Notes under the pieces: generated by a model
The model's database searches: none
Seen by the model: only the letters and a program-made list of their open reading frames with translations
What the model was told of the DNA's origin: nothing
Position numbers and translations under genes: made by a program
NCBI GenBank assembly: GCA_013391845.1
Contig: CP058414.1
Location: forward strand, 951,501 to 1,015,500
Length of the DNA stretch: 64,000 bases
Direction of reading: 5' to 3'
DNA from: Pseudoalteromonas shioyasakiensis
GTDB taxonomy: Bacteria > Pseudomonadota > Gammaproteobacteria > Enterobacterales > Alteromonadaceae
Shown: positions 7,907 to 27,088 of the stretch, one piece after another
Numbering within the stretch: the stretch's first letter is position 1
How the letters are laid out: each line of letters begins with the position of its first letter

Positions 7907-8473
7907 ATGAACACTTTTAACAAATCTATGATTGCCGCTTTAGTAATTGGTGCAACTAGCATGTCAGCTCAGGCAAGCAGCTGGGAAAATGAAAGTAAAG
8001 ATGCTTGGATTGATGGTAAGGCAGAAACTGTGCTTCTTATGAACACAAACCTTAACAACTTTGACATCAACACTGATGTAACGAATGGCAAGGTTGTACT
8101 TACAGGTAAGGTTGATAGCGAATTAGATAAAGAACTTGCTGAAGAGCTGGTTCTTAGCCTAGACGGTGTTAGCTCTGTTGATAACAAATTAACTGTTGTT
8201 AAAAACATGAAAGCTAAGCACATGAAATCAGACAAAGCTGATTCAGCAGAAAGCGACTTAACCGATGCAAAGATCACTACTGTAATCACGACACGTTATT
8301 TATTTAACTCAGAAGTAGGTGGTACAGACATTGATGTGGATACTGACAACGGTGTAGTAACACTTAATGGTACTGTTGAATCTGATGCAGAAAAGCAATT
8401 AGCGGTAAGCATTGCTGAAAACGCTGAAGACGTTCATAAAGTAATCGATAAATTGAAGATTATTGCTGAATAA
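7907..8473 (+). CDS. OsmY-like periplasmic protein with two BON domains
   Basis: The 188-residue product has a signal peptide (about residues 1-24, ending AQA) and two BON domains: about residues 33-105 (KAETVLLMNTNLNNFDINTDV...GKVVLTGKVDSELDKELAEEL) and about 123-188 (ITTVITTRYLFNSEVGGTDIDVDTDNGVVTLNG). The BON domain is thought to bind phospholipid surfaces. E. coli OsmY, an osmotically induced periplasmic chaperone-like protein, has the same length and domain plan. The start is well set by AAGGAG 9 bases upstream. It stands with a Pmp3-family peptide, which also suggests a stress role. Symbol withheld because several BON paralogues usually exist. Confidence 0.85.
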   Translation: MNTFNKSMIAALVIGATSMSAQASSWENESKDAWIDGKAETVLLMNTNLNNFDINTDVTNGKVVLTGKVDSELDKELAEELVLSLDGVSSVDNKLTVVKNMKAKHMKSDKADSAESDLTDAKITTVITTRYLFNSEVGGTDIDVDTDNGVVTLNGTVESDAEKQLAVSIAENAEDVHKVIDKLKIIAE

Positions 8474-8486
8474 TAGCAAGCCCTTT

Positions 8487-8506
8487 AGCCCAGCTTTAGC
8501 TGGGCT
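8487..8506 (+). terminator. Intergenic hairpin after the BON gene (weak terminator or attenuator)
   Basis: An 8-bp perfect stem AGCCCAGC / GCTGGGCT closes on a TTTA loop. No continuous T-run follows (GATTTAATT), so termination would be partial and the downstream peptide gene may be read through. Confidence 0.45.
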
Positions 8507-8528
8507 GATTTAATTCAAGGAGTGAGTT

Positions 8529-8687
8529 ATGGATTTAATACGTATTATTTTATCAGTTTTAATTCCACCCTTAGGCGTATTTTTACAGGTAGGTTTAGGT
8601 GCGCAATTCTGGATTAATATTCTTTTAACCTTATTAGGATACATTCCTGGTTTGATTCATGCCGTGTATATCATCGCTAAGCGATAA
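8529..8687 (+). CDS. Pmp3/YqaE family small membrane protein (UPF0057)
   Basis: This 52-codon gene encodes a peptide beginning MDLIRIILSVLIPPLGVFLQ and continuing VGLGAQFWINILLTLLGYIP before a short basic end. Two hydrophobic hairpin helices and the LPPLGV/GYIPG pattern are the hallmarks of the Pmp3 (YqaE) family, stress-induced proteolipids linked to membrane potential and salt tolerance in yeast, plants and bacteria. AAGGAG lies 6 bases before the ATG. The stop codon overlaps the candidate -10 element of the RNA downstream. Confidence 0.9.
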   Translation: MDLIRIILSVLIPPLGVFLQVGLGAQFWINILLTLLGYIPGLIHAVYIIAKR

Positions 8688-8688
8688 T
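8683..8688 (+). promoter_or_regulatory. Candidate -10 element for the CsrB-like RNA
   Basis: GATAAT (5/6 to TATAAT) would place a transcript start near 8695. The -35 region is poor, as expected for an activator-dependent promoter, but no clear GacA/UvrY site (TGTAAG-N6-CTTACA) is visible nearby. Confidence 0.35.
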
Positions 8689-8694
8689 TACTGC

Positions 8695-9114
8695 ATTGAT
8701 CTGCAAGGATGAGTAATGGAGCACAGCAAGGAAGGGCTGTAGGAGTAACGGATTATAAACCGCAAGGAGTTTACAGTATGGATAATGTAACTACGCTCAA
8801 AGGACAACAAGGAAGTAACAAGGCGTTATGGAGTAGCGCACAATGGCAACGCTTTATGGATAAAGTGAATGGAGATGACAGCAAGGAATAAGCTTAGGCA
8901 GGAGCCAAAAAGGATGAAGCTAGCGTAAGGAGGAGACTATATGGAAAAAGTACAAACGCAACCAACACAAGGATTGACCGACAAAGGAGTTGCTTTATGG
9001 AACAAGCAACAGTGGCACGAATTTATGGAACACGCGAAAGCGGTTGCGCCACGAATAACAGGGAAGGCTGACGATAAAAACCCGATGTCATCTTCAGGTG
9101 ACATCGGGTTTTTA
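8695..9114 (+). ncRNA. csrB: CsrB/RsmB-type CsrA-sequestering regulatory RNA (candidate)
   Basis: About 420 bases carry roughly 23 GGA triplets on this strand, mostly as CAAGGA, TATGGA or AAAGGA, and essentially no TCC. Several GGA motifs fall in hairpin loops: ACAGC-(AAGGAAGG)-GCTGT at 8723-8740, TTACA-(GTATGGATAA)-TGTAA at 8771-8790, CTTTA-(TGGA)-TAAAG at 8852-8865, GGC-(AGGA)-GCC at 8897-8906, and GTTGCTT-(TATGGAAC)-AAGCAAC at 8989-9010. A strong terminator ends the stretch. Repeated ANGGA loops plus a terminator are the defining plan of CsrB/CsrC/RsmB RNAs, which titrate the translational regulator CsrA. Two overlapping short ORFs look like by-products of the repeated motifs. The 5' end is inferred, and the symbol is provisional because several copies can exist. 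Confidence 0.82.
9076..9114. terminator. Strong bidirectional terminator (CsrB-like RNA / chemoreceptor)
   Basis: A 15-bp perfect stem (9076-9090 with 9099-9113) extends by a wobble and a C-G pair to a TTCA loop, with A-runs and T-runs on the two sides. It ends the plus-strand RNA and lies about 20 bases beyond the minus-strand chemoreceptor stop. Confidence 0.92.
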
Positions 9115-9134
9115 ACTACTTCAGCAATTTATCT

Positions 9135-11162
9135 TTATAACTTAAATTGATTCACCGTCTTATTTAAAGCGGCTGCTAATTCATTCAAATCACGTGCTTC
9201 ATCCGCCAATTCATGAGCATGATCCGCAGTGCTATTCACTAAGTGATTAATCGCTGCCAAGCTATTGTTGATATCTTCTGCAACCACAGTTTGTTGCTCT
9301 GTCGAAGTCGCAATTTGATGACTTTGATCTTGCACATTTGTCACAGATTGCGCGATATCTTGTAGAGCTTGCAATACAATTTGTGTTTGCTCAACTGAAC
9401 CCTCAGCACGCTCTTGACCTTGTTGCATCATGGTTGATGCTTGTTGAGCAATTTGCTGTAAACGGCTGATCATATTGCGAATATCATCTGTTGATTCTTG
9501 CGTTCGGCTTGCCAGTGAACGAACTTCGTCAGCAACAACCGCAAAGCCTCGACCTTGCTCGCCAGCACGGGCTGCTTCAATTGCCGCGTTCAGTGCTAGT
9601 AAGTTAGTTTGCTCTGCAATTGAGTTGATAACATCAACTACCGCGCCAATATTGCCACTTTCTTGCTCAAGACCCGCAACCACTTTAGATGCTTCACCAA
9701 TGTGGCTTGCAAGAGCGGTCATCACTGATTGTGCTTGAGTCGAGCGCTTAGTGCCATCTGCGGTAATAGTTTGCACTTCTTCTGCCGCATTATTGGTGTG
9801 CTGAGCGTTACGTGAAATCTCCATCACCGTAGTTGCCATTTCTGTTACTGCAGCACTCACACTGTCTACTTGTTGCTTCTCTTGCTGAATTTCATCGTTG
9901 GTTTTTTGCGAAACTGTTTTCAGCTGGCTAGCAGCTTGGCTTAGCTGCTCTGCTTGTGCAGCAGTATTAAGCATCATTGCACGTAGCTTATCGATGAAAG
10001 TATTCATGTGATGGGCAAGTTGACCCACTTCGTCATTACTTTTTATCTCGATTTTTTGTGTTAAATCGCCATCACCTGAGGCAATATCACGCATGATGTA
10101 AGTTAGTTTTGTTAGAGGCTTGGTGATCATTTGCGTCGCCCAAAAGATCATCGCAATGATAATCGCGAGAATGATGATCACAGATGTGGTCGTTGTCATC
10201 ACCGCATCGTTTACCGGCTCATCAATCATGCTGGTCGGTATTAAAATACCGACATACCAATCTAGGTAAGGAGTTTCTAACTCAAGTCGGTTGTATACAA
10301 CATAATATTGCTCACCTTTGAATGTAACAAAGCTGCTACCATCTTTTTGGCTTTTCATCGCGCGGTTTAATTCGCTAAAGCCTGAAGTGTCGCTAAATTG
10401 TTTTTCGAGGGCATCTAAACCTTCTTTACCATTCGGTCCTTCATCAGTTACAGACAGTTTATGACCAGTGCGTTTCGATAAGTGTACAACCTTTTGATTG
10501 CCATCTAGTAGGAAGCCAAAACCTTGGCCATTAAAACGAATGCCTTCAACCATGTCGTTGATATTATTAAGCTGTAAATCAACACCACCAAAGCCTACAA
10601 GTTTATTTTGTTTATTATAAACAGGCTGCTGTACAACTGCTGAAGCATTCCCGGTGGTCAGATCTACAGAAATAGGACCAACATAGAGTTTGTTGATTTT
10701 TAAAGCGTCTTGCCACCAACCTCGTTTGTACGCGTAATAAGGCTGGCCGTTATAATGAGAGGTGCGCTCATTTTCTTTAAAATACTCACCTGTTGTTGCA
10801 GATGCAAAAAAGGCAGATAAGATGTTGTCGTCGTTACCACTGATGCGGACAAAATCTTGGTTAACACTGTCATATCCAGGTTGGTTATCAAGGCTTTGAT
10901 CACGTTCAGTCCAGTTGTCGAACCAATTAACTAAGTGCGGATTTGTCACGAAAGTTTGTACAACTTTACCGTATTTGGCAAAGTAACCTTGCATTGAGAG
11001 TCGCTCACTCTGTAAATAGCTATCTGCTTCTCGTTGAATAGCTTGGCGTGATAGCTCAGCAATATGGTTAACAAAAAAACTAGAGGCGATGATCAGTAAT
11101 ACACTTATCGTCCCGCCGATGAGTAGTAATATTTTTTTTCGTAAAGAGAGGTTATTTAACAT
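9135..11162 (-). CDS. Methyl-accepting chemotaxis protein with dCache sensor
   Basis: The 675-residue receptor has a first membrane helix (about residues 11-33), a large periplasmic region (about 34-315) with the dCache pattern ([48 protein letters not shown]), a second helix (about 320-345), a HAMP domain (about 346-400) and a methyl-accepting signalling domain. The signalling hairpin tip is intact: [20 protein letters not shown] followed by [15 protein letters not shown]. dCache domains usually bind small ligands such as amino acids; the ligand here is unknown. No C-terminal CheR-tethering pentapeptide is present. It is a single gene. Confidence 0.93.
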
Positions 11163-27005: not shown

Positions 27006-27088
27006 ACGCGGCCTATTAATTGTATTAACTGCGTATGGTGCCAGACTTCGGGTTTGGAGAGCGATACGGCCTTAACTAGAGGTTCCCT

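Follow-up and report, generated by a model that had tools for sequence, protein, structure and literature searches.

Does the GGA-rich stretch that follows the pmp3 gene in this genome act as a trap for CsrA, does it encode a small protein, or does it do both? CsrB-type CsrA-trapping RNAs are taught as dedicated noncoding RNAs, and the first-pass annotation had read the locus in this manner, as a CsrB/RsmB-type RNA lying under two short frames that gene finders would call in error. The analysis was conducted on the window (the whole 64,000-nucleotide stretch, positions 951501–1015500 of a Pseudoalteromonas genome of one 3.63 Mb contig) and on related loci, and it suggests that the segment is probably a CsrA decoy and a microprotein mRNA in one. 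The evidence for this consists of GGA density and retention, the array architecture of relatives, selection on ORF1 and the strict co-occurrence of the small ORF with the GGA-rich stretch, all taken from sequence.

Genomic Setting

The genes of this region occur in the order BON-domain gene, terminator-like hairpin, pmp3, GGA-rich stretch and a chemotaxis receptor gene in convergent orientation, whose end is at 9135 (Table 1). The pmp3 of the window is 98–100% identical to those of P. lipolytica, P. shioyasakiensis and three other Pseudoalteromonas strains, and the genome possesses one csrA gene. No plus-strand promoter match was found across 8475–9300; the scan as such gave four matches on both strands as against 5.5 in shuffles. 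No GacA box was identified near the locus when up to three mismatches were allowed, the nearest sites being at 8087–8104 (within the BON gene, with two mismatches) and at 10265–10282. Since no promoter of its own was detected, the RNA probably belongs to a pmp3 transcript as its tail; this transcript would either take in the whole of pmp3 or begin within the gene, with the segment at its 3′ end, and processing may release the segment from it.

Two side observations were made on the upstream genes. Synonymous diversity in codons 27–39 of pmp3 is 0.30 at loci with the GGA stretch vs. 0.49 at loci without it, while in codons 40–52 it is nearly equal (0.47 vs. 0.49). The lower value makes a promoter inside pmp3 possible, with the caveat that the two sets of loci differ in relatedness. 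The BON gene is poor in GGA, with 3 vs. 8.06 expected by synonymous codon choice, a shortage that looks like avoidance of CsrA sites.

Table 1. Features of the pmp3-linked locus, in positions of the window.
Feature	Position	Strand	Basis
BON-domain protein, 188 aa, upstream of pmp3	7907..8473	+	PF04972, E 7.2e-37, two stretches
Terminator-like hairpin between BON gene and pmp3	8485..8508	+	Consensus terminator scan
pmp3, YqaE/Pmp3 family, 52 aa, directly upstream of GGA stretch	8529..8687	+	PF01679, E 2.1e-23
GGA-rich RNA segment, putative CsrA decoy, from just after pmp3 stop codon to terminator end	8688..9114	+	GGA count
In-frame N-terminal extension of ORF1 (start 8709), probably unused	8709..8777	+	Absent in more diverged relatives
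Hairpin ACAGC-AAGGAAGG-GCTGT, loop with GGA	8723..8740	+	Predicted folds
Hairpin at ORF1 start codon, loop with ATGGA	8771..8790	+	Predicted folds
ORF1, 37-aa microprotein MDNV..ALW..QW..FMD; AAGGAG, then ATGGA at start	8778..8891	+	dN/dS, column permutation
Hairpin GCGTT-ATGGAGT-AGCGC within ORF1	8823..8839	+	Predicted folds
Hairpin CGCTTT-ATGGAT-AAAGTG within ORF1	8850..8867	+	Predicted folds
Inter-ORF spacer, 4 GGA in 49 bases, including Shine-Dalgarno-like AAGGAGG of ORF2	8892..8940	+	GGA count
Hairpin GGC-AGGA-GCC, loop with GGA	8897..8906	+	Single-sequence fold only
ORF2, 69-aa frame, core ALWNKQQWHEFME; paralogous to ORF1 in core	8941..9150	+	Sequence comparison
Hairpin GTTGCTT..TATGGAAC..AAGCAAC within ORF2; double change at one pair in 2/10 rows	8989..9010	+	Predicted folds
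Rho-independent terminator stem and T-tract, may serve both strands	9076..9114 (approx.)	+	Predicted folds

GGA Content and Predicted Folding

The plus strand had been described as rich in GGA and nearly devoid of TCC, and this holds: the 420 bases of positions 8695–9114 contain 23 GGA and not a single TCC, compared to a mean of 2.05 GGA (sd 1.83) per 420-base window over both strands and a maximum of 10 outside the locus. Upstream of the terminator, each of 10 aligned rows (the window included) has 20–23 GGA and no TCC. The closing terminator was likewise recovered as a predicted stem. The consensus terminator scan lists it on the minus strand only (9099–9080), because in the plus-strand orientation the T-tract becomes part of the paired stem.

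The further claim, that GGA falls in hairpin loops, agrees with the predicted folds. Seven of the 23 GGA are predicted to lie in loops, but the excess over chance is not clear, as GGA-keeping shuffles gave 3.93 on average (P = 0.08). The locus taken as the published RNA Pf1 scores the same (7/23, P = 0.093), which makes the loop count a weak test. A second GGA-rich RNA encoded elsewhere in the genome, designated L130, gave 11 of 27 (P = 0.007), and no GGA-in-loop excess was seen when the RNAs of nine relatives were folded at full length together with their arrays (P = 0.31–0.92). Covariation is slight, with double changes in 4 of 77 pairs and a covariation term of −1.25.

Coding Potential of ORF1 and ORF2

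Both frames to which the first-pass annotation had denied the status of genes (8709/8778–8891 and 8941–9150) do exist, but for ORF1 the denial fails. The NG86 dN/dS of ORF1 is 0.25, while its two alternative frames have ratios of 18.5 and 2.9 (9 distinct sequences), and in a second clade, clade D, the single ORF has a dN/dS of 0.23, with 1.2 and 2.1 in the other frames (6 sequences). Column permutation (500 times) gave P = 0.008 for ORF1 and P = 0.004 for the clade-D ORF. When every column belonging to a GGA in any sequence was held fixed, P was 0.002 for each, so the amino acid conservation is not explained by GGA retention at the RNA level. The coding claim rests on these two ORFs (ORF1, 10 loci, 9 distinct; clade-D ORF, 6 loci), which were picked by DNA start patterns; a core set of 13 codons in 19 sequences was picked by amino acid motif, and its low ratio is therefore biased. 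By the evolutionary evidence of these comparisons ORF1 is a real gene, under purifying selection at the protein level.

Position 8778 is the likely start of ORF1, because the 60-aa version is missing in four more diverged genomes: of the 13 genomes found by DNA, 9 have a frame that extends back to the upstream ATG (L009–L017), and in the other four (L018–L021) it starts near the MEN start. What is conserved in the microprotein is a stretch rich in W and Q, without a Pfam match. Structure prediction from nine sequences was weak (mean pLDDT 68.6, pTM 0.33), and the modeled microprotein has one helix at residues 20–36, with a pLDDT of 88 for the block 21–30 and low overall confidence.

ORF1 and ORF2 have the motif ALW..(A/Q)QW..FM(D/E) in common and, on sequence comparison, are paralogs. 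The selection signal of ORF2 is not significant, with a dN/dS of 0.57 and P = 0.20, or 0.11 with GGA fixed (range 0.11–0.33), so the earlier reading of this frame as a non-gene may be right. It had been argued against ORF2 that it runs through the terminator stem and ends 36 bases past 9114; the observation was borne out, but the argument is not decisive, as arfA and brfA behave likewise. These two genes are regulated by a terminator that precedes the stop codon (PMC8012679). ORF2 lacks an in-frame stop before the T-tract in all 13 genomes (window, L010–L021), its stop beginning 34 bases past the T-tract in 12 of them and 46 bases past it in one, and transcription ending at the terminator would thus leave its mRNA nonstop. 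While ORF2 resembles arfA and brfA in traversing a terminator with no stop before it, it differs from them in that no ArfA homology was found and in that it was seen in one clade only. No ArfA (PF03889) was detected across the whole genome, the Escherichia coli control being positive, and ORF2 gave no Pfam match at E 1. With its weak selection signal, the analogy of ORF2 with arfA and brfA as a nonstop ORF is a lead only.

Distribution in Pseudoalteromonas and Tandem Arrays

Relatives of the locus were identified in 13 of 108 genomes of the genus by DNA and in 28 of 108 by a profile of the small protein, 23 of the latter being counted as real. The matches that were dropped (G050, G064, G022, G080, and G015) lay in long frames of 167–793 residues, or in a 17-residue frame with a stop, and G097 (E 0.0066) was retained because it lies behind pmp3. 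A wider search gave 25 homologous proteins, and all of those with a stated organism are from Pseudoalteromonas. On viral contigs 26 stretches fitted the microprotein pattern and none was confirmed, and the search of plasmids gave one match, covering pmp3 only.

The small ORF and the GGA-rich stretch occur strictly together. In a survey of pmp3 loci of the genus, 19 of 60 had 10–21 GGA per 300 bases behind pmp3 and all of these 19 had the small ORF, while the other 41 had at most seven GGA per 300 bases and no W..QW frame, this motif being the mark by which the ORF was recognized. The survey covered 60 of 114 pmp3 matches, that is, 60 of the 66 of the 1–48 type, with the 48 others outside it; the window itself, G084, G096, and G108 were omitted and examined separately, and G076 and G105 were also omitted. 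Outside the genus, too, pmp3 can be followed by a stretch with ten GGA, and the two of these that were inspected, L124 and L089, look like chance.

That this ORF is a spurious frame is not borne out by its presence at 19 of the 19 GGA-rich loci and none of the 41 others. The alternative that the RNA is noncoding, of the CsrB/RsmB type, with ORFs that arose by chance, is decidedly unlikely. It would account for the GGA density, the terminator, the relatives with arrays and the lack of significant selection on ORF2, but not for low dN/dS in two separate clades with wrong-frame ratios of at least 1.2, for the permutation results with and without the GGA columns fixed, or for the near-constant spacing between Shine-Dalgarno sequence and start codon and the co-occurrence of ORF and GGA stretch.

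Three distant relatives (L211, L212, and L215) bear 32-base tandem arrays behind the ORF, of 9.4, 6.2, and 9.8 copies respectively. When units were folded alone, the second GGA was in the loop in 9/9, 3/5, and 9/9 of them (21/23 in total), where shuffles gave means of 1.4–1.7 and maxima of 5–6; L212 alone is not significant, since 3/5 is within the shuffle range. The first GGA of each unit is an AAGGA linker. An alternation of GGA-loop hairpins and GGA linkers is the usual description of CsrB. Standard pairs are found at the four stem positions in 20, 22, 22, and 22 of the 22 distinct units, and as the stem is nearly invariant, covariation adds little. When the RNA is folded whole at a span of 60 bases, pairing between units is predicted as well and there is no loop excess, a result that counts against a simple view. 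It was noted by eye that L211, L212, L215, L225, L229, and L240 end in an inverted repeat of the type AAGTGCATG..GCATGCACTT (degenerate in L227), which is preceded by CTAGGATG and which replaces the terminator of the window's clade outside that clade.

A decoy could also be directed at something other than CsrA, namely at ribosomes, by way of repeated AAGGAG, or at another GGA-binding protein, and several GGA do have an AAGGAG or AAGGAT context. However, the common element is GGA and not AGGAGG, eight of the 23 sites (8688–9075) read ATGGAT, ATGGAA, or ATGGAG, and the loops of the arrays are GATGGAT or TAAGGACTA, near to the loop type preferred by CsrA. Such another target is highly improbable.

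Selection on GGA

Retention of GGA was 0.926 over 10 loci (window included), the highest of the 14 commonest triplets, with 0.753 for all triplets. Relative to a synonymous expectation, for which codons were drawn by the usage of the window's 37 long ORFs, ORF1 has 7 GGA vs. 3.06 (P = 0.0002) and ORF2 has 6 vs. 3.63 (P = 0.016). The ORFs of relatives gave 8 vs. 3.65 (0 of 5000 draws), 8 vs. 4.35 (P = 0.0006), and 6 vs. 3.21 (P = 0.0004), the one exception among the four being that of L225, without a GGA excess (5 vs. 3.76, P = 0.16). Of the two control genes, pmp3 has 3 GGA vs. 2.34 expected (P = 0.30), and the BON gene falls short of its expectation, as given above. Judged by retention and codon choice, the GGA layer is under selection as well, beside the amino acids of ORF1. 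The first-pass annotation had named amino acid selection together with a loss of GGA in relatives as the pattern that would speak against its reading; the amino acid selection is present, but the GGA has been kept too.

The positions of GGA at the starts of the ORFs bear on a further alternative. At 18 ORF starts, located by patterns that were set individually for each ORF, GGA is found in the Shine-Dalgarno sequence in all 18 cases and directly after the ATG in 17, and the spacing from Shine-Dalgarno sequence to start is near-constant. This, along with the protein-level selection on ORF1, is what would be expected of a conventional short mRNA that encodes one small protein or two, is translationally repressed by CsrA at the GGA of its start codons and performs no useful titration. 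Such an mRNA leaves aside that most of the 23 GGA are distant from the start codons, that the arrays of three relatives lie behind the ORF, that codon choice favors GGA, and that the noncoding pieces of the segment have 6 GGA in 90 bases and 4 in 49. It is rather unlikely on balance, and a decoy that is also an mRNA is the preferred reading.

Proposed Mechanism and Comparison with Known Systems

CsrA is known to block translation of its targets at the Shine-Dalgarno sequence or just behind the start codon. In the mechanism proposed here, the many GGA sites of the segment would bind several CsrA dimers and pull CsrA off other mRNAs, as its GGA architecture suggests. The same RNA would be translated into the ORF1 microprotein and, in this clade, also into the duplicated copy, ORF2. 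Since ORF1 and ORF2 each have putative CsrA sites in the Shine-Dalgarno sequence and just past the ATG, synthesis of the microprotein would be expected chiefly once CsrA is saturated, and thus scarce relative to this RNA.

A fuller version is offered tentatively, as somewhat short of an even chance: the locus would be a dual-function RNA, CsrA decoy and small mRNA, with GGA hairpins in the codons of the microprotein, and it would make up the 3′ portion of a BON-pmp3 envelope-stress transcript. Transcription under stress would free the targets of CsrA, the microprotein would be switched on once CsrA was saturated, and the second copy in one clade would be a nonstop ORF with a product dependent on ribosome rescue.

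Parts of this scheme are already known from other systems, since both CsrA-titrating coding mRNAs and dual-function RNAs with a small ORF have been described. The fimAICDHF mRNA of Salmonella titrates CsrA and is coding. The flaA mRNA of Campylobacter jejuni is likewise reported as coding and as titrating CsrA (PMC4894983). Like these, the RNA of the locus is putatively a coding mRNA that binds and would titrate CsrA; they differ from it in encoding full-size proteins, whereas here a GGA density or array like that of CsrB lies around or behind an ORF of 37 codons. Spot 42 and SR1 (SR1P) are similar in being regulatory RNAs that also encode a small protein, but they act by base pairing. A 2023 review places the combination of decoy and small mRNA among the dual-function types perhaps yet to be discovered (PMC10339803). 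No GGA-dense dedicated decoy with an embedded conserved microprotein was found in the open-licence PMC literature. The locus is a natural candidate for this combination, with an evolutionary signature of two layers, and Csr assays already exist for the genus: a glycogen (iodine) assay in laboratory E. coli has been used for Pf1–Pf3, and a CsrA RIP-seq has been published for P. fuliginea (PMC11882849).

Relation to Published Csr RNAs and Rfam Families

Three verified Csr RNAs, with 25 (Pf1), 21 (Pf2), and 9 (Pf3) GGA, are described for P. fuliginea (PMC11882849; also PMC9927453). The published GacA site of Pf1 is CGTGAGACATCTCTTACA, and Pf1-like sequences have been reported for only 252 of 672 Pseudoalteromonas genomes. 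In P. fuliginea KMM 216 this site marks the locus L156, which was taken as Pf1 by the published GacA site alone, in a strain differing from that of the papers. GacA-type sites also mark L171 of KMM 216 and, as a perfect site, L130 in the genome of the window, and at all three loci the site adjoins 20–23 GGA per 300 bases. The window locus had no match, in DNA or protein, in the genome taken as that of KMM 216 (G054), and the pmp3 locus of that genome (L219) is without a GGA stretch. As far as this comparison reaches, identity with Pf1–Pf3 was rejected, Pf2 and Pf3 being covered through the genome and not by their own sequences. The window locus is similar to these CsrB/RsmB-type RNAs in its richness in GGA, its intrinsic terminator and its genus, and differs in that no GacA box or promoter of its own was found, in its place behind pmp3 and in encoding a conserved microprotein. 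The locus also shows that a putative Csr-type RNA can follow directly on pmp3 while lacking its own GacA box.

Given its GacA-type site and the adjoining GGA, L130 probably represents the genome's canonical Csr RNA. It lies outside the window on the minus strand (G000:C1:1136343-1136793) and adjoins a gene that, by eye, resembles an iron-type substrate-binding-protein gene. L130-like DNA occurs in 65 of 108 genomes of the genus, partly as short pieces only, and every one of the 23 genomes counted as having the pmp3-linked locus also has it, at E 1e-66 or better. Because an L130-type RNA is present in all 23, an extra decoy would not be needed for a working Csr system, which counts against the decoy reading.

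A search of Rfam, which the first-pass annotation had proposed as a check, was uninformative for this locus. At the gathering cut-off and at E up to 10 the locus had only a match to CsrC, below threshold (16.5 bits, E 0.014, gathering 61), and the same model set also misses the locus that carries the Pf1 GacA site. L156, L171, and L130 gave no Rfam match at E 0.01, so that Csr-type loci can escape Rfam at this value (three loci of the genus tried, three missed). When RF00018 was searched over 41 relatives, the window's own genome had no match, five of 25 genomes of the genus (G003, G012, G015, G016, and G019) had matches below the cut-off, the best being 59.2 bits in G015, and five genomes of other families had matches above it. 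One match in G019 overlaps the L130-type RNA of that genome, which means that Rfam is not wholly blind here. The pmp3 motif was absent from all eight RF00018 loci (L001–L008, about 3.3 kb each).

Several elements of the plan of a CsrA decoy, as first proposed, were recovered: GGA density and retention, the terminator, GGA-loop arrays in relatives and one csrA gene. The element that did not hold is the noncoding character. As this character and a GacA box were tested for and neither was found, the locus is not filed as a member of the CsrB family, although it probably works like one. Elsewhere in the window, positions 27032–27083 match the L31-Gammaproteobacteria ribosomal protein leader (RF03157, 63.9 bits).
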